A DNA stretch of 64,000 nt from Roseivirga sp. (GTDB lineage: Bacteria; Bacteroidota; Bacteroidia; Cytophagales; Cyclobacteriaceae). Position numbers and translations under genes: made by a program. Below are positions 19,351 through 40,012 of the stretch, piece after piece. Position 1 is the stretch's first letter, and each line of letters opens with the position of its first letter. The notes below the pieces were generated by a model. It was given only the letters and a program-made list of their open reading frames with translations. It did not search any database and was not told the origin of the DNA. The stretch lies in the NCBI GenBank assembly GCA_029262895.1, contig JAJCYM010000074.1, forward strand, positions 62,001-126,000, given 5' to 3'.

Positions 19351-19636
19351 GATTACTGAAGTACAATTCATGTCAAAGTAGTAAAAAGAGCTATGAATCA
19401 AGAGAGATATTTGAATGACGGCAGTGGAAGTTTGATGGTACTCTTCTCGCAGATTCTCAGAACCTGTTAGTATTATGGGCATTAGAACTTTGTTCGATTT
19501 TAGGTGCGGGTTCTTTTAAATGTGGTATAAGCAGCATAGAGTCTAACCCGCTCATTTAAGGCCATAGGTTCGGAGAGGTGTTCAAGACTTATAAAACAAC
19601 CAAACGCAGCGTAAATTACCAGATCAGCTTAGGCCA

Positions 19637-23030: not shown

Positions 23031-24377
23031 ATGTTCAAAAATGCCTTTGCATCAGACTGTGAGATTACCGGATATGAGGTGAAGGATATTCGCTTTCCAA
23101 CAAGCAAAACATTAGACGGCTCTGATGCTATGAATCCGGACCCGGACTATTCAGCAGCCTACCTTATTCTCAAAACCAATATTCCTACGCTTGAGGGTCA
23201 CGGTTTGACTTTCACTATTGGAAGAGGGAATGACATTTGTGTGGCAGCTATTAAAGCATTCATGCCAATGGTGATTGGGCAGAAACTCAACAACATCACC
23301 AGTGATATGGGTGGATTTTGGAGAAAGCTGAATGGTGATAGCCAACTCCGCTGGCTAGGTCCGGAAAAGGGCGTTATACACATTTCAATGGGGGCTGTGG
23401 TCAATGCTGTTTGGGACCTTTATGCTAAATGGGAGGGTAAGCCGCTTTGGAGACTTATTGCAGAAATGAGTCCTGAGGAATTGGTGTCATGCGTTGATTT
23501 TACTTACATCACAGATGCGATTACACCCGAGAAAGCGCTCAAGAATTTACAGTTATTTCAACCCTCCAAGGAAGATCGCATTGAATTCCTGGAGGAGTTT
23601 GGTTATCCAGCCTATACCACCTCTGCCGGCTGGTTGGGTTACTCTGATGAGAAGATTCGAAGATTATGCAGGGAAGCCGTTGCCGAGGGTTGGATGTATG
23701 TGAAAATGAAGGTAGGCAGCAACCTGGAGGACGATGTCAGGAGAGCCACTATTATTCGTGAAGAAATTGGGCCAAATCGTTTTCTGATGATGGATGCCAA
23801 TCAAAAATGGGATGTGCAGGAGGCGATAAGCAATATGGAGGTATTAAGTCGATTCAATCCGCTTTGGATAGAAGAACCAACTAATCCCGATGATATTTTA
23901 GGACATAAAGCCATTGCCGAGGCCGTTCATCCAGTAAAAGTAGCCACTGGAGAGCACTGCCAAAACAGGGTTATGTTCAAGCAGTTCATGACCCATGGAG
24001 CGCTTGATTATTGTCAGATCGATAGTTGCAGATTGGGTGGTGTAAACGAGGTGTTGGCTGTGCTTTTGATGGCCCAGGAACTAGATATTCCGGTTTGTCC
24101 GCATGCCGGAGGAGTCGGTTTATGCGAATATGTTCAACATCTTGCCATGATTGACTATGTCTGCATCAGTGGTACCTTACACGGAAGAGTGGTGGAGTAT
24201 GTTGACCATCTACACGAGCACTTTGAAGCTCCCGTCAAAATCGAGAACGCGGCCTATGTGGTGCCAACAGTTCCAGGTTACAGTATTACCATGAAAAATG
24301 AGTCAATCGCGACCTACAGTTATCCAAACGGAGACTACTGGTCGGAAGAAAAAAGCGTTGTTAATGAGCAAGTTTAG
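23031..24377 (+). CDS. L-fuconate dehydratase (enolase superfamily)
   Basis: A 448-aa enolase-superfamily enzyme that dehydrates L-fuconate to 2-keto-3-deoxy-L-fuconate. The barrel motifs are visible: the KMK pair (Lys225, Lys227), metal ligands in DANQKWD, WIEEPTNPDD and ATGEHCQNR, and the C-terminal base in CPHAGGVGL (His358). The Lys227-His358 spacing equals that of Lys220-His351 in the characterised Xanthomonas campestris enzyme. The length and the N-terminal Phe/Pro-rich loop also agree with this subgroup (FucD/ENOSF1). It is the first gene of the fucose operon and its last 14 bases overlap the next gene. Confidence 0.93.
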   Translation: MFKNAFASDCEITGYEVKDIRFPTSKTLDGSDAMNPDPDYSAAYLILKTNIPTLEGHGLTFTIGRGNDICVAAIKAFMPMVIGQKLNNITSDMGGFWRKLNGDSQLRWLGPEKGVIHISMGAVVNAVWDLYAKWEGKPLWRLIAEMSPEELVSCVDFTYITDAITPEKALKNLQLFQPSKEDRIEFLEEFGYPAYTTSAGWLGYSDEKIRRLCREAVAEGWMYVKMKVGSNLEDDVRRATIIREEIGPNRFLMMDANQKWDVQEAISNMEVLSRFNPLWIEEPTNPDDILGHKAIAEAVHPVKVATGEHCQNRVMFKQFMTHGALDYCQIDSCRLGGVNEVLAVLLMAQELDIPVCPHAGGVGLCEYVQHLAMIDYVCISGTLHGRVVEYVDHLHEHFEAPVKIENAAYVVPTVPGYSITMKNESIATYSYPNGDYWSEEKSVVNEQV

Positions 24378-25137
24378 TTTGAAAGGAAAAAGTGCCATTG
24401 TCACAGGCGCAGGCAGCGGCATTGGTAAAGCAATCGCCCTGGCCTTCGCCCAGGCGGGAGCTTTTGTGCATGTGCTCGAATTAAATGAGCAAGCGGGAAA
24501 TACAGTTGCTGATGAAATCAGAAAGACCGGGGGTGCCGCCAAAGCACATACTTGTGATGTTACTGATCAAGCAGCTATGAAAACCTTGGCCGATAACCTC
24601 GCCATTGAGGGCATCGACATCTTGGTAAACAATGCGGGAATTGCGCACATAGGCAACCTGGAAGGCACCAGCGAAGAAGACATGGACAGAATCTTTGCCG
24701 TGAATGTGAAAGGCGTTTACAATGGAATGTTTGCCTGTATTCCCTATATGAAAGAAAAAGGGGGAGTTATTTTAAACCTCGCTTCAGTAGCTTCTTCTGT
24801 GGGTATTTCTGATCGTTTTGCTTATTCCATGAGCAAGGGTGCTGTGTTGACTATGACACTTTCAGTGGCCAAAGACTATGTGAAGCACAATATTCGCTGT
24901 AATTGTATTTCTCCGGGACGAGTTCATACCCCTTTTGTTGATGGGTTTATAGCTCAAAATTATCCGGGGAAAGAAGAAGAAATGTTTGAAAAGCTATCCG
25001 CCACCCAGCCAATTGGCCGAATGGGTAAGCCTGAAGAAATTGCTGACCTGGCCATATTCTTATGCTCAGATGAGGCTTCATTCATCACAGGAACAGACTA
25101 TCCGATTGATGGAGGTTTTATAAAACTCAATACTTAG
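24364..25137 (+). CDS. SDR dehydrogenase, likely 2-keto-3-deoxy-L-fuconate dehydrogenase
   Basis: A 257-aa short-chain dehydrogenase. The nucleotide motif TGAGSGIGKAIA begins near residue 13, NNAG is near residue 87, and the catalytic YSMSK gives Tyr154 and Lys158. It would oxidise 2-keto-3-deoxy-L-fuconate at C4 to the 2,4-diketo compound with NAD. The start at ATG 24364 overlaps the dehydratase by 14 bases. An upstream reading to 24298 would add 22 residues of no SDR character, so I reject it. The pathway step is inferred from gene order, which matches the known non-phosphorylating fucose route. Confidence 0.87.
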   Translation: MSKFSLKGKSAIVTGAGSGIGKAIALAFAQAGAFVHVLELNEQAGNTVADEIRKTGGAAKAHTCDVTDQAAMKTLADNLAIEGIDILVNNAGIAHIGNLEGTSEEDMDRIFAVNVKGVYNGMFACIPYMKEKGGVILNLASVASSVGISDRFAYSMSKGAVLTMTLSVAKDYVKHNIRCNCISPGRVHTPFVDGFIAQNYPGKEEEMFEKLSATQPIGRMGKPEEIADLAIFLCSDEASFITGTDYPIDGGFIKLNT

Positions 25138-25236
25138 ATGAAATCGACATGATTGAGAGAATTATTAAACTCACAAGGCAATGATTATCATAATCATCAA
25201 AGATTCCATGTGCCCTTTAAAAATAAATGTAAACAC

Positions 25237-26088
25237 ATGAAACTAATTCGATTCGGACCTGTGGGTAACGAAAAACCGGGAATAATAAACAAGAGAGGTG
25301 TCAAATTGGACGTCAGTGGTTTTGGCCAAGATTATAATGAGCATTTTTTTGAGAACGATGGCATAAAACGGTTGATCACCTGGCTGTCTAAAAACATCGA
25401 TAGTTGCCCAACTGCGTCAGATGCTGAAAGGTTAGGGCCGCCCATCTGTAGGCCGTCTAAGATTGTTTGTATTGGCCTGAACTACACCCAACATGCCCTG
25501 GAAAGCGGCATGCAATTGCCAAAAGAACCCGTACTTTTCTTTAAATCTACCACGGCCATTTGTGGGCCCAACGATCCTGTGATTATTCCAAAAGGAAGTC
25601 AAAAAACAGATTGGGAAGTAGAACTGGCAGTGGTTATTGGTAAAAAGACATCCTATGTTTCTGAAGAGGAAGCAATGGCTTATGTGGCTGGATATACAGT
25701 GCACAATGATGTAAGCGAAAGGGCTTTTCAATTGGAGCATGAAGGCCAATGGGTAAAAGGGAAAAGCAGCGATACTTTTGCCCCACTGGGTCCATGGCTG
25801 GTGACCTCTGATGAAATTGATGATCCAAATAATCTCGACCTATGGTTGAAACTCAACGGAGAGACAATGCAAAACAGCAATACGGCTGATATGGTATTTA
25901 AAATACCTCACCTCATCAGTTACACCAGCCAGTTTATGACCTTACTGCCGGGTGATGTGATTTCAACCGGAACTCCATTTGGAGTAGGTATGGGACTGGA
26001 TCCCCAAAGATATTTGAAGGCAGGAGACGAAATGGAACTGGGAATTGACGGGCTGGGTGTGGCAAAACAACTGGTTAAGAATTATTAA
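25237..26088 (+). CDS. FAH-family hydrolase, likely 2,4-diketo-3-deoxy-L-fuconate hydrolase
   Basis: A 283-aa fumarylacetoacetate-hydrolase family enzyme. It starts MKLIRFGPVGNEKPGI, a common opening in this family. The core contains IVCIGLNYTQHA, the metal ligands in DWEVELAVVIG, and VHNDVSERAFQ, and ends with the GDVISTGTPFGVGMG loop. It would split 2,4-diketo-3-deoxy-L-fuconate into pyruvate and L-lactate. I chose ATG 25237. A TTG at 25153 gives a non-homologous 28-residue extension. The 99-base gap before it is the largest within this part of the operon. Its stop shares one base with the next start. Confidence 0.9.
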   Translation: MKLIRFGPVGNEKPGIINKRGVKLDVSGFGQDYNEHFFENDGIKRLITWLSKNIDSCPTASDAERLGPPICRPSKIVCIGLNYTQHALESGMQLPKEPVLFFKSTTAICGPNDPVIIPKGSQKTDWEVELAVVIGKKTSYVSEEEAMAYVAGYTVHNDVSERAFQLEHEGQWVKGKSSDTFAPLGPWLVTSDEIDDPNNLDLWLKLNGETMQNSNTADMVFKIPHLISYTSQFMTLLPGDVISTGTPFGVGMGLDPQRYLKAGDEMELGIDGLGVAKQLVKNY

Positions 26089-26918
26089 TGAAAATAGACG
26101 CTCATCAGCATTTTTGGAATTATGATCCGGTCAGAGATGATTGGATAGATGATACCATGAGCGTGCTTAAAGATGATTTTCTTCCCGATGGGCTAAAAAA
26201 AGAGATGGACAGTTGTGGCATCGAAGGCTGCGTAGCGGTTCAAGCAGATCAGTCTGAAAAAGAAACCACCTTTTTACTTGATCTGGCTGCCCAAAACCCA
26301 TTTATCAAAGGAGTTGTTGGTTGGGTTGATTTGGCCTCGCTCGAAGTGGAGTCCTGGTTGGCTTTTTTCTCAAAGTCTAAGCTCTTCAAAGGCGTGAGGC
26401 ATATTGTTCAAGCGGAACCAGATGTGCAATTTATGCTAAGGGAGGATTTCAAAAGAGGTATTGACGCACTTTCCGAGTTTAACTTCACTTACGATATTCT
26501 CATTTATCCTAAGCATCTGGATGTTGCCTTAGAACTGGTCTCTCAGTTTCCTGAACAACCCTTTGTAATTGATCACATGGCAAAACCTGAGATCAAGGCA
26601 AAGGTTATTTCTCCCTGGAAAGAACAAATGGAAGAGTTGGCAACGGCACCCAATGTGTATTGCAAAGTTTCAGGACTGGTTACTGAGGCGGATTGGCACA
26701 ATTGGAAAGAGGATGATCTAAAGCCCTATTTGGATGTTGTATTCGGAGCTTTTGGAACCAATCGTTTAATGTTTGGTTCGGATTGGCCGGTTTGTAATGT
26801 GGCTGGAAGCTATGCTTCGGTCTATTCCCTTGTAGAAGAATACCTCAAAGGCTTTGACAAGGAAGATCGTGAGAAAATCTGGGGACAAAATGCATCTGAT
26901 TTTTATGCACTAACTTGA
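26088..26918 (+). CDS. Amidohydrolase, likely L-fuconolactonase
   Basis: A 276-aa metal-dependent hydrolase of the amidohydrolase-2 (COG3618) type. The metal motif HQH is at residues 6-8 (MKIDAHQHFWNY), later ligands include the VIDHMAKP His, and the catalytic Asp lies in MFGSDWPVC. Proteins with this opening hydrolyse sugar lactones such as L-rhamnono- and L-fuconolactone. In this operon the product of L-fucose dehydrogenase would be opened to L-fuconate. No signal peptide, so cytoplasmic. The ATG overlaps the TAA of the previous gene by one base. Confidence 0.9.
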   Translation: MKIDAHQHFWNYDPVRDDWIDDTMSVLKDDFLPDGLKKEMDSCGIEGCVAVQADQSEKETTFLLDLAAQNPFIKGVVGWVDLASLEVESWLAFFSKSKLFKGVRHIVQAEPDVQFMLREDFKRGIDALSEFNFTYDILIYPKHLDVALELVSQFPEQPFVIDHMAKPEIKAKVISPWKEQMEELATAPNVYCKVSGLVTEADWHNWKEDDLKPYLDVVFGAFGTNRLMFGSDWPVCNVAGSYASVYSLVEEYLKGFDKEDREKIWGQNASDFYALT

Positions 26919-26939
26919 TTTGAATAAGTGACAGACCTC

Positions 26940-29900
26940 ATGATCAAGACATCCCATAAAATTTTAACTAATCGTCAGAAACTGCTTTCGTTTGCAATTG
27001 CCCTTTCCATGTTTTTGGTATTGTCTGGTTGTGGTTCCTCGGGGGAAAAGAAAGTACTCGTCTTCTCCAAGACTGCCGGTTACCAACATCAATCAATTCC
27101 TACCGGTATAGTGGCTGTTCAGCAACTTGGAAAAGAAAATGGGTTTGTGGTCGATACTACATCCGATGCCTCACTATTCACGGAAGAGATATTGGCTCAG
27201 TATAGTGCTGTCATCTTTATGAGTACCACAGGCGATGTGCTCGATCATAACCAACAAGCGGATTTTGAAAGATATATTCAGGCTGGAGGTGGATATGTAG
27301 GAGTGCATGCTGCTGCAGATACAGAGTATCAATGGCCATGGTATAATCAGCTTGTGGGGGCGTACTTTTTGAGTCACCCGGCACAGCAAAATGCCACAGT
27401 GAAGGTGTTGGATAGAGCGCATATGGCAACGGATCATCTTCCCGAAGAATGGACCCATTTTGACGAATGGTACAATTACAAAAGCATAGTCGAAGGACTT
27501 AATGTTTTACTGAACCTTGATGAATCCAGCTACGAGGGCGGAACCAATGGCCCAAACCATCCCATTTCCTGGTATCGTGAATTCGATGGAGGCAGAATTT
27601 TTTATACAGGACTCGGACACACCAACGAGACTTATTCGGATGAGCTCTTCCTTCAACACTTGTTAGGAGGTATAAACTACGCAATAGGTGATAATTCGAG
27701 AGATTATGCGAAGGCCATTTCCCAAAGAGTACCCCTGGAAAATAGATTTCAAAGAGAGGTTTTGGCTAACAACCTCAATGAACCCATGGAATTGGATTAC
27801 CTGCCTGATGATCAAATTCTTTTTATCGAAAGGGCTGGTGATTTGAAGCTTTATGATCTCAAAACAAACATCCTGTCGAACGTGGCTCATATCAATGTTG
27901 ATTATGTGTCAGAAGATGGATTATTAGGGTTGGCAGTTGACCCGAACTATGAGACCAACCATTGGATCTACATTTTTTATACTCCAAAAAATGCCGATAA
28001 ACTTCAACGGCTTTCAAGGTTCGATTTGAGGGAAGGTGTGCTGGATTTTGATTCAGAAAAATACTTACTCGAATTCCCCAGTACTCGGGAATGCTGCCAT
28101 TCAGGTGGTTCCTTGGAGTTTGACCGTCAAGGAAATCTGTATATCTCAACAGGGGACAACACCAATCCCTTCGAGTCGGATGGATATTCACCAAGTGATG
28201 AAAGGCCGGGAAGATCGGTTTGGGATGCGCAGAAATCAAGTGCGAATACCAACGATTTGAGGGGTAAGATAATCCGAATTAAACCGGAAGATGCTGGCAC
28301 TTATTCTATCCCGGAAGGCAATCTCTTTGAAGATGACGACCCAAAGACACGACCCGAGATTTATGTAATGGGTGTACGTAATGCCTTTAGAATTTCTATC
28401 GATCAGAAAAATGGAAATTTATATTGGGGAGACATTGGGCCAGACGCTGGAAATAATGATTCCTTGAGAGGCCCTCATGGCATTGACGAAATCAATCAAG
28501 CCAGGCAACCAGGCAATTGGGGGTGGCCGTATACCCGAGGAAATAATATATCCTACTGGGACTATGACTTTGCCAACAAGAAATCCAGAACACCATTCGA
28601 CCCAAATAACCTTGTAAACAATTCACCCAATAATACCGGGATTCAGAATTTGCCACCCGCTCAACCCTCATTTATTTGGTACCCCTATGATGCGACAGGC
28701 GAATTTCCATGGGTAGGCTCTGGAGGGCGAACGGCTATGGCTGGTCCGGTTTTTTACAAGGACCAATTCGATGGAGCCGAGAACAGATTCCCCGACTATT
28801 ATGATGGCAAACTATTCGTTTATGAGTGGATGCGTGACTGGATATTTGTGGTCACCATGAATGAAAATGACGAATATGTTAAAGCCGAACCCTTCATGGC
28901 TAATTCGGAGTTTCACAATCCAATTGATATGGCTTTTGGCAAAGACGGCAGCCTCTACATACTGGAATATGGTGAAAGCTGGAATACTCGAAACTTGGAC
29001 GCACAGCTAAATAAGATCAGTTATGTTGAAGGTAATCGGGCTCCAATTGCGCGAATAAGTTCAGACAAGACTATTGGTGCTACTCCTCTGAAGGTTCAAT
29101 TTAATGGCGAGGGTTCGGAAGATTTGGAAGGAAGTCTATTAAGCTATAGATGGGTCTTTGGTGATGGGCTGGGAGAAAGCACTGAAGCAAACCCAACATT
29201 CACCTTTGACCAAAAGGGAAATTTTGACGTCAGACTAACAGTCACTGATCCGGAAGGCCTTCAGGCCGAAACAGTCTATACCATTGCTGCTGGAAATAAC
29301 CCACCAGAAATTTCTATTCAGTTCGATTCGGAGAACAGATTTTACAATCGTAATGGAAGGTTTGGCTATCAAATTGGAGTAGAAGATTTGGAAGACGGTA
29401 ACCTTGGTTCAGGGGGCGTCTTGTCCAAAGACGTTAAAGTCAGCCTGGCATTTTTACCAAATGGTAGAAAAGAAATTGTTGAAACAGGTCATAAGATCGA
29501 AATAATCTCTCCGGGCAAAAAACTGATAGATAATTCGGATTGCAGTGCCTGCCATGCTGTGGATCGAAAGATTAATGGGCCCTCATACCAGGAAATTTCC
29601 AACAAGTACTCAAAAGACCAAATGCCAATGTTGGTGGGTAAAATTAAAAATGGAGGAGCAGGTGTCTGGGGTGAAACACCAATGGCAGCCCATCCCCAAC
29701 TGAGTGACACAGAAATTCTGGAGATGGTCAAATACATTATGTCATTTAAAGAGGACGGCACAATGCTTACAACTTCAGGGAGTTTGGCATTTAATCAACA
29801 CGAAAAATCGAACCTCAAGGGAGTGTATGTTTTGACGGCCACTTACACAGATAAAGGCAGTGAGGGAGTAGCAGCTGTCACCTCAACGGAACAATATGTA

Positions 29901-30308
29901 TTCAAGTCGTCCATGTTGGAAGCCGAAGAAGCTGACGCAATGCATGAGAATAATAGTTTTTGGAATGCACTGGGTGCCGACATTGTAGGAAACATTAAGA
30001 GTGGCAGCTATCTCATGTTTGACGAGGTGCTTTTTGACGAGCTTCAATCGGTCACATTTAGAGGAGTATATAATGACAAATACAATTATCAGGGAACAAT
30101 CGAACTAAGGAGGGGAGCGATAGATGGAGGGTTACTTGGACAGGCTAAACTGAATTATGACGAACAAAAACAGTCTTTCAGAGACGATAGAATAATTCTA
30201 AAATCTGGGACAGGAAAGGATAAGTTGTTTGTCGTATTCAAAAACTCTGATGACCCTGAGAAATTCATCACCAATCCCGATTACGTTTTGCTTAATTATA
30301 AGAAATGA
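26940..30308 (+). CDS. Five-domain lipoprotein: ThuA, PQQ-type sugar dehydrogenase, PKD, cytochrome c, CBM6-like
   Basis: A 1122-aa lipoprotein (VLSGC lipobox near residue 30). In order: a ThuA-like domain (about 38-250; KVLVFSKTAGYQH, VGVHAAADTEY), a six-bladed soluble PQQ sugar-dehydrogenase domain (about 265-690; EDGLLGLAVDP, DNTNPF, RGKIIRI), a PKD domain (about 695-785), a c-type cytochrome with CSACH (Cys868, Cys871, His872) and likely axial Met915, and a CBM6-like end. PQQ-domain enzymes of CAZy family AA12 oxidise sugars including L-fucose and pass electrons to a fused haem. I start at ATG 26940; a GTG at 26928 adds four residues. Its stop overlaps the next start (ATGA). Confidence 0.88.
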   Translation: MIKTSHKILTNRQKLLSFAIALSMFLVLSGCGSSGEKKVLVFSKTAGYQHQSIPTGIVAVQQLGKENGFVVDTTSDASLFTEEILAQYSAVIFMSTTGDVLDHNQQADFERYIQAGGGYVGVHAAADTEYQWPWYNQLVGAYFLSHPAQQNATVKVLDRAHMATDHLPEEWTHFDEWYNYKSIVEGLNVLLNLDESSYEGGTNGPNHPISWYREFDGGRIFYTGLGHTNETYSDELFLQHLLGGINYAIGDNSRDYAKAISQRVPLENRFQREVLANNLNEPMELDYLPDDQILFIERAGDLKLYDLKTNILSNVAHINVDYVSEDGLLGLAVDPNYETNHWIYIFYTPKNADKLQRLSRFDLREGVLDFDSEKYLLEFPSTRECCHSGGSLEFDRQGNLYISTGDNTNPFESDGYSPSDERPGRSVWDAQKSSANTNDLRGKIIRIKPEDAGTYSIPEGNLFEDDDPKTRPEIYVMGVRNAFRISIDQKNGNLYWGDIGPDAGNNDSLRGPHGIDEINQARQPGNWGWPYTRGNNISYWDYDFANKKSRTPFDPNNLVNNSPNNTGIQNLPPAQPSFIWYPYDATGEFPWVGSGGRTAMAGPVFYKDQFDGAENRFPDYYDGKLFVYEWMRDWIFVVTMNENDEYVKAEPFMANSEFHNPIDMAFGKDGSLYILEYGESWNTRNLDAQLNKISYVEGNRAPIARISSDKTIGATPLKVQFNGEGSEDLEGSLLSYRWVFGDGLGESTEANPTFTFDQKGNFDVRLTVTDPEGLQAETVYTIAAGNNPPEISIQFDSENRFYNRNGRFGYQIGVEDLEDGNLGSGGVLSKDVKVSLAFLPNGRKEIVETGHKIEIISPGKKLIDNSDCSACHAVDRKINGPSYQEISNKYSKDQMPMLVGKIKNGGAGVWGETPMAAHPQLSDTEILEMVKYIMSFKEDGTMLTTSGSLAFNQHEKSNLKGVYVLTATYTDKGSEGVAAVTSTEQYVFKSSMLEAEEADAMHENNSFWNALGADIVGNIKSGSYLMFDEVLFDELQSVTFRGVYNDKYNYQGTIELRRGAIDGGLLGQAKLNYDEQKQSFRDDRIILKSGTGKDKLFVVFKNSDDPEKFITNPDYVLLNYKK

Positions 30309-31765
30309 AAGGTTTAAGAAATCTAGGATGCGCTTTGATGGTTTGTTTTCTATCCATCCCATCCATAAACGCCCAAGAAGAAAAACAAAAATACTATCCT
30401 GAAACTGATCCTTTGGTGCTGGAAAAGTTAGAGCATTGGCAGGATATCAAGTTCGGCTTGTTAATGCATTGGGGTGCCTATAGCCAATGGGGTATTGTAG
30501 AGTCCTGGTCCATTTGTGCAGAAGATGAACCATGGTGCCGTAGGCCACATGACAATTATGAATTGTATAAAAAGGAATATGAAAACCTTCAAACCACCTT
30601 CAATCCGGTCAACTTTGATCCCGATAAATGGGCAGCAGCGGCCAAACGGGCTGGGATGAAGTATATGGTGGTTACCACCAAACACCACGATGGCTTCACC
30701 ATGTTTGATTCGAAGTATACGGATTATAAAATCACAGATCCCAAAACACCTTTTCATACCAACCCCAAAGCCAATGTGACCAAAGAGATATTCAACGCTT
30801 TTCGAAAAGAGGAATTTATGATTGGAGCTTACTTCTCCAAACCCGATTGGCATTCTCCCTATTACTGGTGGCCCAATTTTGCCACGCCAGATCGAAATGT
30901 GAATTACAATGTAGAGACCTACCCTGATCGTTGGGAGAAATTCAAGGAGTTTACCCATGGTCAGATTGATGAGTTGATGACCGACTATGGCAAAGTAGAC
31001 ATCCTTTGGTTTGATGGTGGCTGGGTGCAGCCTTATTCGGACGAGGAGATTCTGGCGTACAAAGTCAAGAAGGGTTTCAAGCAGGTTAACCTTCAAAATC
31101 AGGATATTGATATGCCTGGCCTGGTAAAAAAAGTGAGAGCTAAACAGCCAGGAACTATCATTGTTGACCGTGCAGTTGAAGGGCCTTACCAGAACTATAT
31201 CACACCTGAAAATCGCATTCCGGATAAAATGGTACCTCATCCATGGGAATCACCTATGATTGCAGGAGGCAGTTGGTCATGGATCAAAAACCCTCGCTAT
31301 ATCCCCACTAGAAGAGCGGTGCATATGTTGGTAGATATAGTCTCAAAGGGAGGTAATCTTTTATTGAATATTGCCCCTTCGCCTCTTGGTGAATTCGATA
31401 AGGGAGCCTATGAATTATTAGAAGGCATAGGACAATGGATGGATGTAAACAGCGAAGCGATTTACAATACCAGAGTAATTGCCCCTTATAAGGAAGGCAA
31501 GGTGGCCCTCACACAAAATCGACATAATAAAGCTGTTTACGCCATTTATTTGGCCGGAGAAGGTGAAACAACGCTACCTTCTCGAATTTGGCTGACCTCA
31601 ATACAACCGATTAAAGGAAGTCAGTTGACTTTATTAGGATCAAAGGCCAAGTTGAAATGGGAGGCCGTGGCTGATGGCTTTGTGGTCAATATTCCCGAGA
31701 GTGTTAGAAAAAACCCACCTGCCCAGGATGCCTGGGTGATTAAAATTGACAAAGTAAAAGACTGA
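30305..31765 (+). CDS. GH29 alpha-L-fucosidase, secreted
   Basis: A 486-aa glycoside hydrolase with a cleavable signal peptide (near SINA|Q, residue 23). GH29 marks are FGLLMHWGAYSQWG, the TTKHHDGFTMFDSKYTDY block and the nucleophile in ILWFDGGW (Asp237), followed by the conserved SKGGNLLLNIAPSPLGEFD segment. It releases terminal L-fucose with retention of configuration. A short C-terminal beta domain follows and no binding module is attached. The ATG overlaps the preceding stop, which couples it to the PQQ/cytochrome protein. Linkage preference cannot be told. Confidence 0.95.
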   Translation: MKGLRNLGCALMVCFLSIPSINAQEEKQKYYPETDPLVLEKLEHWQDIKFGLLMHWGAYSQWGIVESWSICAEDEPWCRRPHDNYELYKKEYENLQTTFNPVNFDPDKWAAAAKRAGMKYMVVTTKHHDGFTMFDSKYTDYKITDPKTPFHTNPKANVTKEIFNAFRKEEFMIGAYFSKPDWHSPYYWWPNFATPDRNVNYNVETYPDRWEKFKEFTHGQIDELMTDYGKVDILWFDGGWVQPYSDEEILAYKVKKGFKQVNLQNQDIDMPGLVKKVRAKQPGTIIVDRAVEGPYQNYITPENRIPDKMVPHPWESPMIAGGSWSWIKNPRYIPTRRAVHMLVDIVSKGGNLLLNIAPSPLGEFDKGAYELLEGIGQWMDVNSEAIYNTRVIAPYKEGKVALTQNRHNKAVYAIYLAGEGETTLPSRIWLTSIQPIKGSQLTLLGSKAKLKWEAVADGFVVNIPESVRKNPPAQDAWVIKIDKVKD

Positions 31766-31784
31766 TAGCCAAATTCAACAACCG

Positions 31785-34214
31785 ATGAAAAAACTTGTCC
31801 TTAGTATCGCTGTTTTGACCTGCCTGATAATTGCTGGTTGCTCGGGAGATAAGAACATCACGCTAAATGCCGGCTCATTAAAGATTGTCCTGGATCAAAG
31901 TGGGAATGTTGTTGGTTTTGAAGATTTATCCGGGCAGGATTTTCATTTCAAAGATACGCTCTCACCATTGATGTCGGTTTGGATTGGGGATGAGGTGCTT
32001 TTACCTACTGAGGCAATATTGGAAGAAGAAAACCTGACATTGAAATACAAAGATGATCTGTTTGCTCGAATAAATGTTGCGGAAAAGGAAAGTCATCTAA
32101 CCTTGGAATTAGTAGCACTTGAAGGAAATGAAGAAGTTGATTTAGTTGTGTGGGGGCCTTATCCAACCACGATTAACGGAGTGATCGGAGAAACTGTGGG
32201 CGTGGTGAGAAATGACAATTATGCTATTGGTATACAATCCCTCAATCCCAAAACATTAGGCGGCTACCCATGGAATGACAATGATGAGATGCCCCAAATC
32301 GATATTTTCGAAGATGGTGATTTCTCCAACCTAAGTCGCGAAGGAAGGCGTTATGTGCTGTACAGAGTGGAGGCCGCTAAGCCTACCGATTTTGGAAGCA
32401 CCTTGCAGGCCTATGCACGAAACCGAAATAAGGACAGAACTATAAAGAATTGGGGCATGGATCAATATGTTGCTCCAGCCCTTGCTGATGGTGGAGTAAT
32501 TGGTTCTAAGATAGCATTGTTCGGATCATCCGAAGCTGCCGCATTAGAGACGCTCGGAAAAATTGAATTGGCAGAAGGTTTACCACATCCAACCATTGAT
32601 GGGCAGTGGGGCAAACAAGCACGATCGGCCGCGGCTGCCTATATGATCATGGGTTTTAGTGAAAAGAACGTAGACAGAGCCATTGAATACACCAAACAGG
32701 CTGGGTTAAAATATCTCTATCACGATGGACCATTTAAGAATTGGGGTCATTTTGAGTTGAAAGAGGAGAGTTTTCCAAATGGCTGGAATGGCATGATGCG
32801 AGCGGTAGAGAAGGCTGAGGCCAATGGCTTGTCGGTGGGAGTACATACACTTTCCAACTTCATCACCACCAATGACCCTTACGTGACCCCCGTTCCTGAC
32901 GAGCGTCTGGCAAAAGTCGGTTCGAGTAGAATCTCAGGAGATATTACTGCACGGCAAAAAGAGATTCCTGTAGAATCACCTGACTTTTTCAGACAGCTTA
33001 AGAGTAACAGCCTTAAAACTGTTATGGTCGGTTCGGAACTGATTCGATATGGATCTGTCTCTGAGCAAGCACCCTGGAAATTACTCGATTGCCAGAGGGG
33101 CGCCTATGGCACCGAGGCGGGCGTACATCAAAATGGAGATCAAATCAGTCTTTTAGCGGATCATGCCTACAACGTTTTTCTAACCTCCCCTGAATTGGGT
33201 AAAGAAATGTCTGAGAACATTGCGGACTTGTTTAATGAAACAGGCTTGCGCCAAATCTCTTTTGATGGAGTAGAAGGCAGTCGTTCAACGGCTCTGGGAA
33301 ATTATGGAGAGATCTTATTCACAAAGGCCTGGTACGACCGTCTTTCCGATGATATCAAAAGCCATCTGATTATTGACGCCAGCAGAACTACCCATTTCTT
33401 CTGGCATATGTATTCACGCATGAATTGGGGAGAGCCGTGGTATGCGGGTTTCAGGGAAAGTCAAACCGAATACCGACTGAAGAATCAGAAATACTTTGAG
33501 CGCAATTATATGCCAAACATGCTGGGTTGGTTCAAAATGTGGCCTATCACAAGCATTGAAGATATAGAATGGATGTTGGCAAGATCGGCAGCCTTCAATG
33601 CAGGATATGCCTTCGTTGCCAACTTTGATGCTCTAGAGAAAAATGGTTATTCGGATGAAATTCTAAGTGCCATTGGTCAATGGGAAAAAGCGAGAATGGC
33701 AGATGTATTTTCAGAGGAACAACGCCAGAGAATGGAAGACATTAGCAATGAATTTCATTTGGAGGCCACTGGTGATAATCAATGGAACCTTCATCAGATA
33801 CACTCTTATAAATTCAAACATGAAAAGAAAGTAAGACAGCCCGGAGAGCCCTTATACTCCACCTTCGATTTTGAAAACCCCACAGGGAACAACACCCTTC
33901 AGTTTATCCTTACGGCCGTAGATGCGGACCTTTCTCAGGTCACATTGGAACTGGACAATTATAAAAAGATCACTGTCCCCATTTCTCTCAAGACTGGACA
34001 AACGCTAAAATACACGGGTGGTGGAACAGCAACGCTCTATTTGGAGAACTGGCAAAAAATCAGAGATGTCAAATTGGACGAAACACTCTTGGCGATTAAT
34101 GATGGTGCGCACACGGTTAATTTCGACTGCACATTCTCGCGAGAGGGAAAAGAACCAACCGCTAAATTGGAGCTGAGAATTTACGGAGCTGCTGAACCCC
34201 TGAAACAACAATAA
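31785..34214 (+). CDS. Candidate new glycoside hydrolase, TIM-barrel-like lipoprotein
   Basis: An 809-aa lipoprotein (IIAGC, Cys19) not assignable to a named GH family by eye. Residues about 25-225 look like an N-terminal beta-sandwich as in GH36 and GH101-type enzymes. Residues about 270-640 look like a beta/alpha barrel with strand-end acidic motifs LKYLYHDGPF (Asp314) and RQISFDGVEGSR (Asp494, Glu497), then a MNWGEPWY strand, and a beta-rich C-terminus. Asp494 in a 'F-D-G' strand end is a credible catalytic residue. It lies between GH29 and GH95 fucosidases, one base overlapping the latter, so it probably acts on the same glycan. Confidence 0.75.
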   Translation: MKKLVLSIAVLTCLIIAGCSGDKNITLNAGSLKIVLDQSGNVVGFEDLSGQDFHFKDTLSPLMSVWIGDEVLLPTEAILEEENLTLKYKDDLFARINVAEKESHLTLELVALEGNEEVDLVVWGPYPTTINGVIGETVGVVRNDNYAIGIQSLNPKTLGGYPWNDNDEMPQIDIFEDGDFSNLSREGRRYVLYRVEAAKPTDFGSTLQAYARNRNKDRTIKNWGMDQYVAPALADGGVIGSKIALFGSSEAAALETLGKIELAEGLPHPTIDGQWGKQARSAAAAYMIMGFSEKNVDRAIEYTKQAGLKYLYHDGPFKNWGHFELKEESFPNGWNGMMRAVEKAEANGLSVGVHTLSNFITTNDPYVTPVPDERLAKVGSSRISGDITARQKEIPVESPDFFRQLKSNSLKTVMVGSELIRYGSVSEQAPWKLLDCQRGAYGTEAGVHQNGDQISLLADHAYNVFLTSPELGKEMSENIADLFNETGLRQISFDGVEGSRSTALGNYGEILFTKAWYDRLSDDIKSHLIIDASRTTHFFWHMYSRMNWGEPWYAGFRESQTEYRLKNQKYFERNYMPNMLGWFKMWPITSIEDIEWMLARSAAFNAGYAFVANFDALEKNGYSDEILSAIGQWEKARMADVFSEEQRQRMEDISNEFHLEATGDNQWNLHQIHSYKFKHEKKVRQPGEPLYSTFDFENPTGNNTLQFILTAVDADLSQVTLELDNYKKITVPISLKTGQTLKYTGGGTATLYLENWQKIRDVKLDETLLAINDGAHTVNFDCTFSREGKEPTAKLELRIYGAAEPLKQQ

Positions 34215-36583
34215 TGAGCAAAACCTGGCTTCTTGCTTTTGCCTTAATTTTTGTTGGTGCCTGCCAGACAAAGGAACCTGAGGCTACTCAAAGGCTAGTG
34301 CTTTGGTATGACGCTCCGGCTAAAGATTGGTCTACCGAGGCTTTACCCATTGGGAATGGCCGGCTGGGTGCTATGGTATTTGGTGACACGAAAACTGAGC
34401 GCATTCAGTTGAATGAGGATTCCATGTGGCCCGGAGGCCCGGACTGGGGTGACGCACAGGGAACACCCGAAGACTTGCAAAAGGTGAGAGATTTATTGGT
34501 AGCCGGTAAGGTACATGAAGCAGATAAGGAATGGGTGGGTCGCTTCTCTCACAAGAGCATTGTCAGGTCGCACCAAACCATGGGCGATCTCTTTATCGAT
34601 TTCGAGGATCGAGAAGTCACTAATTATAAACGCCAGCTGGACCTTGACTCATCGCTGGTAACCGTCAGCTATGATACCGATTCAGGGCATTTTACAGAAC
34701 GGGTATTTGCCAGCAATCCACACAATGCATTGGTGGTAGAATTAAAAACCACTAGTCCGGATGGCCTGAATCTATCACTGCGTTTGGATCGACCCAAGGA
34801 TGATGGAAAACAGACGGTTGAAGTTTTGGCTCACAACGGCAATGAGCTATGGATGCATGGAGAGGTAACGCAATTGAAAGGCAAGCACTTCTCAAAAGAC
34901 ACCCCGATCTATAGCGGTGTGGAATTTCAAACCCAATTGAGGGTTGAAAACGAGGGCGGTGATGTGACCGCTGAAGAAAATGAGTTAAACTTAAATGGGG
35001 TCAAGAGAGCCGTTATATATATCACCGCTGCCAGCTCCTATTACCATGGTGAATACTTCAATACAGTGGTAGCCGAAGAGCAGACAGCTTTGACAAAAAC
35101 CTTTTTTGAGAATATTCTAAAGGAACATGTTGCTGACTATCAAAGCCTTTTTAAGCGTGTGGGTTTGGATTTGGGTGGCCAGGAGCTGGATAGCTTGCCG
35201 ATCAATACCAGACTTGAAAGGATCAAGGCTGGTGGGCAGGATCCTGATTTTGTAGCCAAACAATTCCAATTCGGCAGATATTTATTGATTTCCAGCTCAA
35301 GACCAGGCACCAACGCAGCCAACCTTCAGGGTATTTGGAATGAATATCTTCAAGCACCCTGGAATGCCGATTATCATTTGAACATTAATGTCCAGATGAA
35401 TTATTGGCCGGCTGAGGTTACCAACCTCAGCGAAACCCATCAACCGCTTTTCGACTTTACCGAAAGACTAATCGAACGCGGTAAAATCACAGCCAAACAA
35501 CAATATGGCATGCGTGGTTTTGTAGCCCACCAAGCCACCGATTTTTGGGCTCCGGCATGGATGCGGGCAGAACGTCCATACTGGGGTGCCTGGGTAGGAG
35601 GTGGAGGCTGGTTGATGCAACATTTTTGGGATCACTATCAATTTACAAAAGACGAAGAGTTTCTAAGGCACCGTGCCTATCCTGCCATTAAAGAATCAGC
35701 CCTCTTTTATCTGGATTGGCTGATGAAAGACCCGAGAGATGGTAAATGGATCTCTGCACCATCCACCTCTCCTGAAAACTCCTACACTGCCCCTGATGGA
35801 AAGTCGGCCGCGACAGTATTAGGTACAGCGATCGACCAGCAAATTATTGAAGAAGTTTTTCAGAATGCTCTGACCGCAGCCGGAGTTTTAGGAATTGAGG
35901 ACGATTTCACCAAAGAAGTAAGGCAAAAGTTGACTGACCTGAGACCGGGGGTAGTGATCGGACCCGATGGTAGAATATTGGAATGGGACCGGCCCTATGA
36001 TGAACCTGAAAAAGGACATCGACACATGTCTCACCTCTATGCAATTTATCCGGGCAATACCATCACAAAAGAAGGCACACCGGATTGGTTTGCTGCTGCC
36101 AAAAAATCAACAGAATATCGTCTGGCGAATGGTGGGGCCGGCACAGGCTGGAGTAGGGCCTGGCTGATCAATCTTTCTGCTAGGCTCCAGGAAGGAGAAG
36201 AAGTGGATAAGCATGTCAATTTGCATTTGCAAAAATCGATTGTTCCCAACCTGTTTGATATGCATCCTCCATTCCAAATTGATGGCAATTTTGGATTTAC
36301 TGCTGGCGTTGCGGAAGCCCTGCTACAATCACATACGGACGAAATTCACTTACTTCCAGCCCTTCCGGATACTTGGTCTGAAGGAGAAATAAAAGGCCTG
36401 AAAGCCAGAGGCAATCTCACCATTGATATGCATTGGAAAAGCGGATTGCTGAAAAAAGCTGTGGTAACACCAGAATTTTCCGGGGCCTATGATTTCAGGT
36501 ATCAAAATATCACCAAGACCCTTCAAATGGAGGCGGGAAAAACTTATTCACTTGATGAACAACTGGGTATTCAAAAAAAATGA
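34214..36583 (+). CDS. GH95 alpha-L-fucosidase, lipoprotein
   Basis: A 789-aa inverting fucosidase of family GH95 with a lipobox (VGAC, Cys17). The N-terminal signature ALPIGNGRLGAMVFGD and the RIQLNEDSMWPGG block match the family. Catalytic elements are visible: NINVQMNYWPAE (Asn390, Asn392), SPENSY (Glu521) and QIDGNFGFT (Asp690), corresponding to Asn421/Asn423, Glu566 and Asp766 of the Bifidobacterium AfcA enzyme. The family acts mainly on alpha-1,2-linked fucose; some members act on L-galactose. Its first base overlaps the preceding stop and only one base separates it from the following gene. Confidence 0.95.
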   Translation: MSKTWLLAFALIFVGACQTKEPEATQRLVLWYDAPAKDWSTEALPIGNGRLGAMVFGDTKTERIQLNEDSMWPGGPDWGDAQGTPEDLQKVRDLLVAGKVHEADKEWVGRFSHKSIVRSHQTMGDLFIDFEDREVTNYKRQLDLDSSLVTVSYDTDSGHFTERVFASNPHNALVVELKTTSPDGLNLSLRLDRPKDDGKQTVEVLAHNGNELWMHGEVTQLKGKHFSKDTPIYSGVEFQTQLRVENEGGDVTAEENELNLNGVKRAVIYITAASSYYHGEYFNTVVAEEQTALTKTFFENILKEHVADYQSLFKRVGLDLGGQELDSLPINTRLERIKAGGQDPDFVAKQFQFGRYLLISSSRPGTNAANLQGIWNEYLQAPWNADYHLNINVQMNYWPAEVTNLSETHQPLFDFTERLIERGKITAKQQYGMRGFVAHQATDFWAPAWMRAERPYWGAWVGGGGWLMQHFWDHYQFTKDEEFLRHRAYPAIKESALFYLDWLMKDPRDGKWISAPSTSPENSYTAPDGKSAATVLGTAIDQQIIEEVFQNALTAAGVLGIEDDFTKEVRQKLTDLRPGVVIGPDGRILEWDRPYDEPEKGHRHMSHLYAIYPGNTITKEGTPDWFAAAKKSTEYRLANGGAGTGWSRAWLINLSARLQEGEEVDKHVNLHLQKSIVPNLFDMHPPFQIDGNFGFTAGVAEALLQSHTDEIHLLPALPDTWSEGEIKGLKARGNLTIDMHWKSGLLKKAVVTPEFSGAYDFRYQNITKTLQMEAGKTYSLDEQLGIQKK

Positions 36584-36584
36584 A

Positions 36585-37547: not shown

Positions 37548-37554
37548 CTGAAAT

Positions 37555-38334
37555 ATGGACCTGAAACTCAAAGACAAAGTATTTATCGTAACCGGGGGTG
37601 CGAAAGGCATCGGTAGGGCCATTGCCGATCAATTGGTTGATGAAGGCGCTATTGCCGTGATCTTAGATAAGGATGTTGATACGGGACAAGAATTGATTTC
37701 TAAAATCGAAAATGGAGGTAATAAAGCCTCTTTTATCGAAACTGATTTATGTGATTCGAATCAATGTGAAGAGGCCATTCAAAAAACCATTGATACCTAT
37801 GGTCAACTCAATGGGCTGGTCAATAATGCTGGAATTAATGATGGGATTGGACTTGAAAACGGGTCGCCACGGGGATTCAGAGAGTCCCTTGAAAAGAACC
37901 TGTCCCATTTCTATGATATGGCACACTTCTGTTTGCCCCACCTGAAAGATTCAAAAGGATCCATACTCAATATTGCCTCCAAAACAGCCGTCACTGGTCA
38001 GGGTCATACCTCCGGCTATGCCGCTGCTAAAGGAGGCGTTTTGGCATTAACTAGGGAATGGGCTGTGGAATTACTTGAGAGTGGAATTCGGGTGAATGCC
38101 GTTGTTCCTGCTGAGGTGATGACCCCGCTTTATGAAAACTGGTTAAAGACCTTTGACAACCCGGAAGCCAAACAAAAATCCATTGAGGACAAAGTGCCTT
38201 TAGGAAAACGCATGACAACTCCTGAAGAAATTGCCAATACCGCAGTATTCCTATTGTCCGAAAAAGCTAACCATATCACCGGTCAGCACATCTTTGTTGA
38301 CGGTGGCTATACACACTTAGACAGAATAATTTAA
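37555..38334 (+). CDS. SDR dehydrogenase, likely L-fucose dehydrogenase
   Basis: A 259-aa short-chain dehydrogenase. The coenzyme motif is TGGAKGIGRAIA (from about residue 14), followed by NNAG near residue 90 and the catalytic YAAAK (Tyr155, Lys159). FVDGGYTH closes the fold. It resembles SDR L-fucose dehydrogenases (HSD17B14-like group), which oxidise L-fucose to L-fucono-lactone. Its place next to the fucose permease and mutarotase supports that role; the separate SDR at 24364 fits the later deoxyfuconate step. The assignments could be swapped, since motifs alone do not fix the substrate. Confidence 0.83.
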   Translation: MDLKLKDKVFIVTGGAKGIGRAIADQLVDEGAIAVILDKDVDTGQELISKIENGGNKASFIETDLCDSNQCEEAIQKTIDTYGQLNGLVNNAGINDGIGLENGSPRGFRESLEKNLSHFYDMAHFCLPHLKDSKGSILNIASKTAVTGQGHTSGYAAAKGGVLALTREWAVELLESGIRVNAVVPAEVMTPLYENWLKTFDNPEAKQKSIEDKVPLGKRMTTPEEIANTAVFLLSEKANHITGQHIFVDGGYTHLDRII

Positions 38335-38336
38335 GA

Positions 38337-39662
38337 ATGAACTCCATACCACAGCAAAAGCCCAAACTAGTCGATCGGAAGGTGTTGATTCCTTTCATTC
38401 TGATCACCTCCCTTTTCGCACTATGGGGTTTTGCAAATGCGGTGACGGACCCAATGGTTCAGGCATTCAAGAAAGTATTGGAGCTCACCAATTCGCAGGC
38501 GGCATGGGTACAAATGGCATTTTATGGTGGTTATTTCTGCATGGCCTTACCGGCTGCACTATTTGTTCGCAAATACTCCTATAAGGTAGGTGTGCTTATT
38601 GGACTTGCACTTTATGCCTTGGGAGCGCTGTTGTTTTTCCCGGCAGCAATTACAGAGCAATTCTGGTTTTTTTGTCTTGGACTGTATATTCTAACCTTTG
38701 GCTTAGCTTTTTTAGAAACCACAGCCAATCCCTACATCCTGGCGATGGGAGCCAGAGAAACCGCCACCCAGCGCCTCAACCTTGCACAGGCATTTAATCC
38801 GGTGGGCTCCATTGGGGGATTACTTATTGCTCAGCAATTTGTACTCAAAAACTTGAAATCAGATGATGTTGCGGATTACGCCTCACTGGATCTCGCTGAG
38901 AAGACATTGATAAAGACGGCTGATCTTCTGGTCATTCGAAACCCCTATGTGATATTGGGTTTGGTTTTGATTGGAGTATTTATTCTTATTGCTGTCAATA
39001 AAATGCCACAAGCCAGGGACGAAGGCAAAAAGCCCAGCCTTAAAGCGACATTTGATTCACTGAGAAGAAATAAGAAGTATGTCTTGGGGGTGCTGGCACA
39101 GGTCTTCTATGTGGGAGCACAAATTATGTGCTGGACCTACATCTATCAATATGCAGAAGCCATTGGCATATCGAGTACCATTGCCGCCAATTATCAACTG
39201 GCCGCCTTCGTTTTATTTCTTGTCGGTAGGGCAGTTGGTACCTATCTGCTAAGATTTATCAATTCAGGAAAACTGCTTGCCTATTTTGCTGTTCTGGCCG
39301 GTATTTGTACGGTTTTCGCTATTTATATGGAGGGGACAACTGGCTTGTACGCTCTGGTAGCTACTTCATTTTTTATGTCGGTAATGTTCCCAACTATCTA
39401 TGGAATAGCCTTGAACGGGCTTGATGAAGAGCAATCAAAAATTGGCGCAGCAGGACTCGTAATGGCAATTGTCGGTGGAGCGTTGATGCCTAAATGGCAA
39501 GGAATGATTATTGACCTTGGAGGGAATGGTGTAAGTGACACCCAAATAATCGGGGTCTCAGAGGTGAATTTCTCCTTCGTTCTACCGCTTCTTTGTTTTG
39601 TTTATATCGCCTGGTATGGTCGACAGGTATTTCGAAGGTATCAACCGGTAAAAGCGCTATAA
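38337..39662 (+). CDS. fucP: L-fucose:H+ symporter FucP (major facilitator superfamily)
   Basis: A 441-aa inner-membrane transporter with twelve hydrophobic segments. The opening FILITSLFALWGFANAVTDP contains the first-helix motif typical of FucP, including an Asp in the position known to matter for fucose/proton coupling in E. coli. The GYFCMALPAALFVRKYSYK loop, the FLETTANPY segment in helix 4-5 and the MFPTIYGIALNGL segment are also characteristic. It brings free L-fucose into the cytoplasm. It starts two bases after the dehydrogenase stop. Closely related carriers for glucose/galactose (GluP) exist, but operon context favours fucose. Confidence 0.93.
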   Translation: MNSIPQQKPKLVDRKVLIPFILITSLFALWGFANAVTDPMVQAFKKVLELTNSQAAWVQMAFYGGYFCMALPAALFVRKYSYKVGVLIGLALYALGALLFFPAAITEQFWFFCLGLYILTFGLAFLETTANPYILAMGARETATQRLNLAQAFNPVGSIGGLLIAQQFVLKNLKSDDVADYASLDLAEKTLIKTADLLVIRNPYVILGLVLIGVFILIAVNKMPQARDEGKKPSLKATFDSLRRNKKYVLGVLAQVFYVGAQIMCWTYIYQYAEAIGISSTIAANYQLAAFVLFLVGRAVGTYLLRFINSGKLLAYFAVLAGICTVFAIYMEGTTGLYALVATSFFMSVMFPTIYGIALNGLDEEQSKIGAAGLVMAIVGGALMPKWQGMIIDLGGNGVSDTQIIGVSEVNFSFVLPLLCFVYIAWYGRQVFRRYQPVKAL

Positions 39663-39667
39663 TCTTT

Positions 39668-40012
39668 ATGAACAAGTATTGCCTGACACTGGACCTAAAA
39701 GATGATCCTCAACTGATTGAGGAATACAAAACCCATCATCAAAATGTATGGCCGGAAATTATTCAGAGCATAGAGGACTCAGGCATTCACCAAATGGAAA
39801 TCTACCTCTTAGGCAATCGACTTACCATGATGATGGAGGTGGATGATACTTTCTCCTTAGAGAAGAAAGCTGCCGCTGATTCCAACAATGACAAGGTTCA
39901 GGAGTGGGAAACACTTATGTGGAAATACCAGCAGGCACTCCCTTTAGCTAAACCAGGTGAAAAATGGCTCCTTATGGAAAAGATTTTTCAGCATAAAGCC
40001 AACAAGGAATGA
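39668..40012 (+). CDS. L-fucose mutarotase of the RhaM-like family
   Basis: A 114-aa protein starting MNKYCLTLDLKDDPQLIEEY, the recognisable opening of the L-rhamnose mutarotase fold (dimeric alpha/beta barrel). HHQNVWPEIIQSIEDSGI and the EIYLLGNRLTMMMEV strand follow. Such proteins interconvert sugar anomers, presenting the beta-anomer to the dehydrogenase. It is unrelated to FucU of E. coli, and RhaM-like proteins in fucose clusters are taken as fucose mutarotases. It starts five bases after fucP; a reading from 39593 would overlap fucP and lacks family character. Its stop overlaps the next start (ATGA). Confidence 0.87.
   Translation: MNKYCLTLDLKDDPQLIEEYKTHHQNVWPEIIQSIEDSGIHQMEIYLLGNRLTMMMEVDDTFSLEKKAAADSNNDKVQEWETLMWKYQQALPLAKPGEKWLLMEKIFQHKANKE

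Follow-up and report, generated by a model that had tools for sequence, protein, structure and literature searches.

The closest described relatives of the protein considered here are the prokaryotic PQQ (pyrroloquinoline quinone) aldose sugar dehydrogenases (Asd; 3a9g, 2ism, 2g8s and 3das) and the soluble glucose dehydrogenase (sGDH; 1cq1), six-bladed propellers that carry a catalytic His, an Arg-Asn pair and a Gly-Pro calcium loop. A second point of comparison is family AA12, in which the fungal enzyme CcPDH (6jt5) joins a propeller to a haem and a carbohydrate-binding module (CBM), the fused haem being described in PMC6881789, and in which TrAA12 (6h7t) shows a weak preference for L-fucose (PMC6881810). 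Here we describe a gene (P0001, 26940..30308, + strand) from a 64,000-nucleotide stretch of a Roseivirga sp. genome (assembly GCA_029262895.1, contig JAJCYM010000074.1, positions 62,001 to 126,000), hereafter the window, in which a propeller of this kind is fused to a ThuA domain, a PKD domain, a cytochrome c and a CBM6 domain. We give an even chance to its product being a carbohydrate dehydrogenase that is anchored in the envelope and carries its own outlet for electrons, probably quinone-dependent and with a remodelled pocket. No description of this architecture was found in the open-licence PMC literature searched, and passages of PMC11345257 did not bear on it.

The gene is a single stop-free open reading frame (ORF) for 1122 amino acids; the mechanical ORF list opens the frame 12 bp earlier, at GTG, and holds no ORF of at least 120 aa on the - strand within 26940-30308. 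It begins with a signal peptide and lipobox (26940..27032; LVLSGC), of which the LSGC with Cys31 (codon 27030-27032) was recognised by eye; the lipobox Cys is common to the copies at L202, L203, L204 and L116, and the strict lipobox pattern is matched by 67 of 100 rows. All five domains exceed their Pfam cut-offs. The ThuA domain (residues 38-248, 27051..27683) matches PF06283 over the full profile (1-209 of 209) with 272 bits and belongs with the solved ThuA-like proteins 4jqs and 4e5v, which differ in having single-domain length (250 and 281 residues) and for which the searches made found no tested function. The propeller occupies about residues 266-695 (27735..29024), an extent drawn from the Pfam match, the propeller model and fold comparisons, as the PF07995 (GSDH) match covers residues 279-552 (139 bits, cut-off 25) and profile positions 1-241 of 332 only. 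It is followed by the PKD domain (residues 699-782, 29034..29285; PKD_4 at 699-778, 63 bits, and PDB matches), by the class I, c551-like cytochrome c (residues 857-937, 29508..29750; Cytochrom_C at 857-935, 34 bits) with CSACH at 868-872 and Met915, and by the CBM6 domain (residues 995-1105, 29922..30254; PF03422, 34.7 bits, cut-off 28.9), by its sequence a candidate glycan binder. The cytochrome shares CxxCH and the distal Met with class I cytochromes c551/c552 (2d0s, 76 bits over 72 residues), from which it differs in being a fused domain. Structure models of the full length (mean predicted local distance difference test, pLDDT, 84.7) and of the propeller alone (90.4) both agree with these domains, the linker before the haem domain (pLDDT 45-54) and the haem domain itself (59-82) being among their least sure parts. 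The ORF and Pfam matches thus bear out the sequence-only reading in describing one 1122-aa lipoprotein with a ThuA domain, a propeller of the type dependent on pyrroloquinoline quinone (PQQ), a PKD domain, a CSACH/Met915 cytochrome c and a CBM.

Alignment to sGDH, together with the comparisons of relatives and other GSDH proteins described below, indicates a cofactor site that has been kept yet remodelled, a change that goes along with the ThuA fusion, and this is the most unusual point of the protein. The putative catalytic base His387 (sGDH His144), preceded by the vicinal pair Cys385-Cys386 (28092..28100), is kept, as are Arg480-Asn481 (28377..28382; sGDH Arg228-Asn229) and the Gly-Pro calcium loop, where sGDH 247-248 corresponds to Gly511-Pro512 in a register that is uncertain owing to a second conserved Gly500-Pro501. 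What is lost, compared with both Asd and sGDH, are the R-x-R and Lys anchors of PQQ: sGDH Lys377 is replaced by Met631, and Asn660-Pro661-Ile662 (28917..28925) stands at the canonical Arg-x-Arg site, with Asn660 for Arg406 and Ile662 for Arg408. Lys377, the Arg at 408 and the Arg equivalent to CcPDH Arg621 are PQQ ligands according to PMC6881789. The check that the sequence-only reading had proposed, on the PQQ and calcium ligands, was made through sGDH and gives a divided answer, with the catalytic triad and calcium loop retained and the Lys377, Arg406 and Arg408 anchors gone.

The same positions bear on the earlier assignment of the propeller to the AA12 type. His387 aligns with sGDH His144, which PMC6881789 equates with CcPDH His363, and the AA12 Arg/Asx dyad (Arg430/Asn431 in CcPDH, with the role given in PMC6881810) is matched by Arg480-Asn481. 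At the bacterial R-x-R places, where we put the PQQ-carboxylate ligand Arg621 from the sGDH alignment and PMC6881789, the protein has Asn660 and Ile662, so that the PQQ-binding Arg shared by AA12 and the bacterial glucose dehydrogenases (GDHs) is lost. Nor is the sequence closer to AA12 than to the bacterial GDHs, and the fold is nearer the prokaryotic aldose dehydrogenases, the AA12 fold match being weaker. CcPDH carries its haem in a b-type AA8 domain and its binding module is a CBM1; the haem here is c-type, with CxxCH. Membership of AA12 is rejected on the lost Arg, the sequence comparison and the type of haem; the AA12 label is not supported.

The pocket is a property of a family. Of the 138 relatives confirmed in a collection of 84,980 species genomes, 80 were kept, at loci found by six query peptides (EYQWPWYN, NHWIYIFY, YWDYDFAN, YEWMRDWI, NKYSKDQM and MHENNSFW); L002 and L084 are the window itself. 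The resulting alignment has 80 rows, the window and 79 relatives, with L081, a 688-aa fragment at a contig end, left out of it and of the tree. Twenty own-family relatives, the best matches of the own-family set in a whole-protein search and so no random sample, were compared separately. His387 and Arg480-Asn481 are invariant in all 80 rows and all 20 own-family relatives, the calcium-loop Gly is invariant in the family, and the haem ligands C868, C871, H872 and M915 are likewise kept in 80/80 and 20/20. Cys385-Cys386 is present in every aligned row and, by alignment, in 19 of the 20 own-family relatives (a cruder pattern count of Cys-Cys-His gives 16/20). Over the 80 rows the Arg406 site is His660 in 75, Asn in four and Arg in one, and the Arg408 site Met662 in 73, Ile in four and another residue in three; among the own-family relatives Arg stands at 660 in one and at 662 in none, and an F-H-N-P motif is common to the window, its genus copies, L116 and L117. 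As YEWMRDWI was a search peptide, its 80/80 conservation, and with it that of Met631, is in part a product of how the loci were found; in the own-family relatives residue 631 is Met in 14 and Ile in six, and Arg632 is constant (20/20).

Other GSDH proteins look different. Among 32 rows from the own genome and the phylum, which are best-scoring and hence canonical by choice, Arg occupies both R-x-R places in 30 (the exceptions being L162, a wrong ORF, and the divergent L003), Cys-Cys never precedes the His, and position 325, Glu in the window, is Gln in 31. In a further sample of 20 hand-picked long GSDH proteins, with ThuA and haem judged by pattern and residues by alignment, Cys-Cys-His occurs in 11 of 12 ThuA-bearing rows and in none of the eight others, and Arg at both anchors in none of the 12 (at the first only in five) and in two of the eight. 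L175 is the exception, having ThuA and CxxCH and no Cys-Cys. Six ThuA-GSDH proteins of 1089-1307 aa (L174, L177, L180, L182, L183 and L189) have Cys-Cys-His and no CxxCH, and form a haem-free branch. The idea that the Cys-Cys pair gates electrons to the fused haem was considered and is rejected as stated, because Cys-Cys-His tracks the ThuA fusion and not the haem (6 of 11 Cys-Cys-His rows lack CxxCH).

A dehydrogenase anchored in the envelope seems to us the best account of these features, and the scheme that we infer is as follows. The GSDH-type propeller would oxidise a sugar or the end of an oligosaccharide and pass the hydride to a quinone, for which scavenged PQQ together with Ca2+ is the likeliest candidate; His387 would act as the base and Arg480/Asn481 would activate the quinone. 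Electrons would then flow through the fused c551-like haem to the respiratory chain, with CBM6, and possibly ThuA too, holding the glycan and PKD serving as a spacer. The pocket departs from those of known PQQ enzymes, however, and with the PQQ-carboxylate anchors replaced PQQ dependence is not to be assumed. Scans for PQQ synthesis add little on either side: with profile TIGR02111 the own genome gave no match and 296 genomes gave only 23 weak ones, none above the cut-off, which no control exceeded either, and TIGR02109 gave three own-genome matches below a cut-off that again no control exceeded. It is possible, if doubtful, that the family is a distinct enzyme class, in which a propeller with a rebuilt site binds PQQ in a novel mode or works with a different redox cofactor, ThuA carries out a second step on the oxidised sugar, and the whole has spread in Bacteroidota as a plug-in for fucose and xylose operons and for ebo export.

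A further propeller for comparison, that of the human hedgehog-interacting protein (7pgm), solved with heparin and with hedgehog, is non-redox. The present protein could instead be a surface or periplasmic glycan binder whose propeller, ThuA, PKD and CBM6 domains hold polysaccharide while the haem has some other or general role. We regard this as rather unlikely, because the catalytic base, the Arg-Asn pair and the calcium-loop Gly are invariant and a c-type haem with both ligands in every aligned row would be needless in a pure binder.

The gene lies in a + strand run from 23031 to 41154 whose genes are separated by short gaps or overlap. First comes an enolase-superfamily sugar-acid dehydratase, probably an L-fuconate dehydratase (23031..24377; PF13378 206.8 bits, all NCBIfam matches below cut-off), then a short-chain dehydrogenase/reductase (SDR; 24298..25137), from its place in the operon a probable 2-keto-3-deoxy-L-fuconate dehydrogenase, and an FAA hydrolase, probably acting on a 2,4-diketo-3-deoxy sugar acid (25153..26088; NF053535 350 bits, cut-off 500). 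An L-fucono-1,5-lactonase-like amidohydrolase (26088..26918; NF052480 279.5 bits, cut-off 400) ends 21 bp upstream of the lipoprotein gene, whose stop overlaps by 4 bp the start of a GH29 alpha-L-fucosidase (30305..31765; PF01120 309.8 bits), as had been read from the letters. After an 809-aa lipoprotein follow a GH95 protein, apparently a lipoprotein (34214..36583; PF22124 556 bits), a phosphodiesterase-like protein, an SDR-type L-fucose dehydrogenase (FucDH; 37555..38334; NF052481 415 bits, cut-off 300), the L-fucose:H+ symporter FucP (38337..39662; TIGR00885 518 bits, cut-off 280), a RhaM-family sugar mutarotase (39593..40012; PF05336 109.8 bits) and a member of the FMN-dependent L-lactate dehydrogenase family (40009..41154; PF01070 386 bits). 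The operon enzymes together look like a full route ending in pyruvate and lactate, which we take to be the non-phosphorylating L-fucose pathway. Judged by eye from the N-termini, signal sequences start GH29, the 809-aa protein, GH95 and the ThuA-GSDH lipoprotein, the first three thus being apparently exported, and none is visible on the pathway enzymes, lactonase and FucDH included; fucose is therefore expected to be released outside, imported by FucP and oxidised inside by the NAD(P) enzyme.

The 809-aa lipoprotein (31785-34214) matches nothing in Pfam or NCBIfam and has no solid counterpart in the PDB; homologues stand at the edge of the congener locus L202 (partial, 69% identical) and in Pricia (L051, 50%), and it is a candidate for a new glycan-active family of fucose loci. 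The type I phosphodiesterase/sulfatase-fold protein (36489-37547) has a 74% identical homologue in the congener locus L203. Outside the operon, on the - strand, lie a tetratricopeptide repeat protein with an adenylate/guanylate cyclase domain (17641-19482) and a 564-aa protein that matches neither Pfam nor NCBIfam profiles (19637-21331).

This setting had suggested that the protein is an L-fucose oxidase of the AA12 kind in the periplasm, making a lactone for the lactonase next door to open and so giving the operon a second fucose route, a reading that is partly supported. The fucose preference of TrAA12 (PMC6881810), though weak, and the fused haem of CcPDH (PMC6881789) speak for it, as do the shared catalytic triad, the retained calcium loop and haem ligands, the operon position kept in two congeners and a separate branch of the protein in fucose-type loci of Flavobacteriaceae. 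Yet a full cytoplasmic route for fucose is already encoded in the operon, the lactonase has no visible signal peptide, so that a lactone made outside would miss it, a full-length copy is missing from five of the eight genomes of the genus that bear FucDH (own included in the eight), the fold resembles the aldose dehydrogenases more than AA12, and the PQQ-carboxylate anchors are replaced here and almost throughout the family; as a whole this explanation is unlikely. Of the two routes once proposed, uptake by FucP with a complete cytoplasmic route is what the genes point to, and the lactonase relay of the periplasmic one is unsupported. Fucose oxidation as such fares better: under the envelope-dehydrogenase reading, the context would make L-fucose or a fucosylated oligosaccharide the most likely substrate in this operon, the protein then being an accessory to FucP uptake and the cytoplasmic route.

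Within the genus a full-length copy is present in 4 of 19 genomes (own included) and FucDH above the cut-off in 8 of 19; three genomes carry both, G438 has a full-length copy with FucDH not above the cut-off, and one of the five FucDH-bearing genomes without a full-length copy, G439, has a weak ThuA-only match. Two congeners, G442 and G449, keep the order AraC, enolase, SDR, FAA, lactonase, ThuA-GSDH gene and GH29 of the window. This presence and absence, together with the kept gene order, marks the protein as a lasting member of the fucose operon that can nevertheless be done without. In another congener, G445 (L205, about 9249-9977), all that is present is a piece of the ThuA domain, with 65% identity to the window domain and one internal stop in the match.

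Farther out, most of the 80 kept relatives match nearly the entire length of the protein and 81 of 148 own-family genomes match at E<=1e-100 (own included, with ThuA-less paralogues counted), so the architecture is not due to chance; many of the matching own-family genomes hold several copies, some without ThuA. The genes around them vary. Within up to 10 kb per side of the 80 loci, six (L025, L030, L035, L036, L037 and L040) share with the window two or more of the set AraC, enolase, FAA and GH29 as close homologues, in L051 the 809-aa homologue is accompanied by a weak GH95 match (27%), and four Emticicia loci have GH95 at only 38%. FucP, lactonase and mutarotase at 60% coverage were found in none of the 80 loci, and the search for FucDH there returned only other SDRs at 28-33% identity. 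Among the 20 own-family loci GH29 occurs in one (L116), alongside GH92 and a ROK protein. In the tree (100 rows, a quick search with no bootstrap, two long branches flagged) the window copy groups with L117 and L116 (Shimodaira-Hasegawa-like approximate likelihood-ratio test, SH-aLRT, 100), apart from the flavobacterial fucose set, and a fucose label on nine rows, L116 and L051 included on thin grounds, requires three changes, from which the fucose linkage appears to have more than one origin. Within the genus the link to fucose is genuine; it is not a trait of the whole family.

Xylose forms another setting. Xylose isomerase (XylA) lies within the locus in 4 of the 80 relatives and 3 of the 20 own-family loci (above the cut-off in L004 and L010), with genes near the copies at L004 (8653-9960), L005, L007 and L010 and at L126, L131, L132 and L204; in three Flavobacteriaceae loci it stands 33-37 bp upstream of the copy, and G438 has a partial XylA some 6.8 kb from the gene. 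By eye on the tree this linkage likewise looks to be of multiple origin. The substrate elsewhere in the family would probably vary with the neighbouring genes, D-xylose being one example.

In 17 of the 80 loci (L011, L012, L014, L016-L018, L020-L022, L024, L029, L033, L062, L066, L079, L081 and L082) the gene borders on the ebo cluster or lies inside it, with homologues of EboD, EboE and EboF arranged in three or more gene orders: in Arenibacter the gene stands between eboA, which precedes it, and eboB, with ebo at its 3' end in Allomuricauda (L016, L062), L012, L017 and L081, ebo 1.6-2.6 kb past that end in L011 and L082, and the gene just before eboA in L079. EboC, EboE and EboA-domain representatives exceed the NCBIfam cut-offs. 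The protein might on these grounds be a periplasmic oxidase for an ebo export product, recruited later to sugar clusters, as ebo genes serve the export of a precursor to the periplasm in scytonemin synthesis according to PMC6282210, whose main text makes no mention of ThuA, PQQ or Bacteroidetes. Since 16 of the 17 loci are Flavobacteriaceae by record title or lineage and the window, the four genus loci and the 20 own-family loci show no match for EboC, EboD or EboE, we consider this origin improbable. L011 also has a canonical-looking GSDH gene with R-x-R (8977-10005) near its ThuA-GSDH-cytochrome gene.

ThuA is linked with 3-keto disaccharides in rhizobia. The propeller could in principle be a glycoside 3-dehydrogenase that makes a 3-keto sugar for ThuA or for a nearby 3-keto-disaccharide hydrolase; PF06439-type hydrolases (one representative scanned) lie within the locus in 12 of 80, six PF06439 genes are in the own genome, and such hydrolases are proposed partners of periplasmic 3-dehydrogenases (PMC9007349). 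However, none of the six lies on the window contig, six of the 12 hydrolase loci belong to Arenibacter, the own family contributes none, sGDHs oxidise C1, and the known periplasmic 3-dehydrogenases (LacABC type, PMC9007349) are a different family; a 3-dehydrogenase is improbable. A pair of genes recurs near the gene in 12-13 of the 80 loci (L029 7683-9569 and L079 5808-7760 among them): one encodes a 3-keto-disaccharide hydrolase that also carries PA14, the other a 651-aa protein in which a cytochrome c at the C-terminus is the sole Pfam match.

The architecture is common in Bacteroidota; its interest, of moderate weight, lies in the rebuilt pocket, in the fusion to ThuA and in the linkage to ebo. 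Automatic annotation tends to label such proteins PQQ-dependent sugar dehydrogenases, and the state of the pocket bears on whether that label fits this branch. Through its ebo neighbours the protein also gives a way into an export cluster that is conserved widely and understood poorly. The family is real and widespread, and its members probably act in the cell envelope as respiratory dehydrogenases of carbohydrates. We know of no published model of a polysaccharide utilisation locus in which energy is gained before uptake; if sugar is indeed oxidised outside the inner membrane and the electrons are respired, glycan-eating Bacteroidota would take just such a step.

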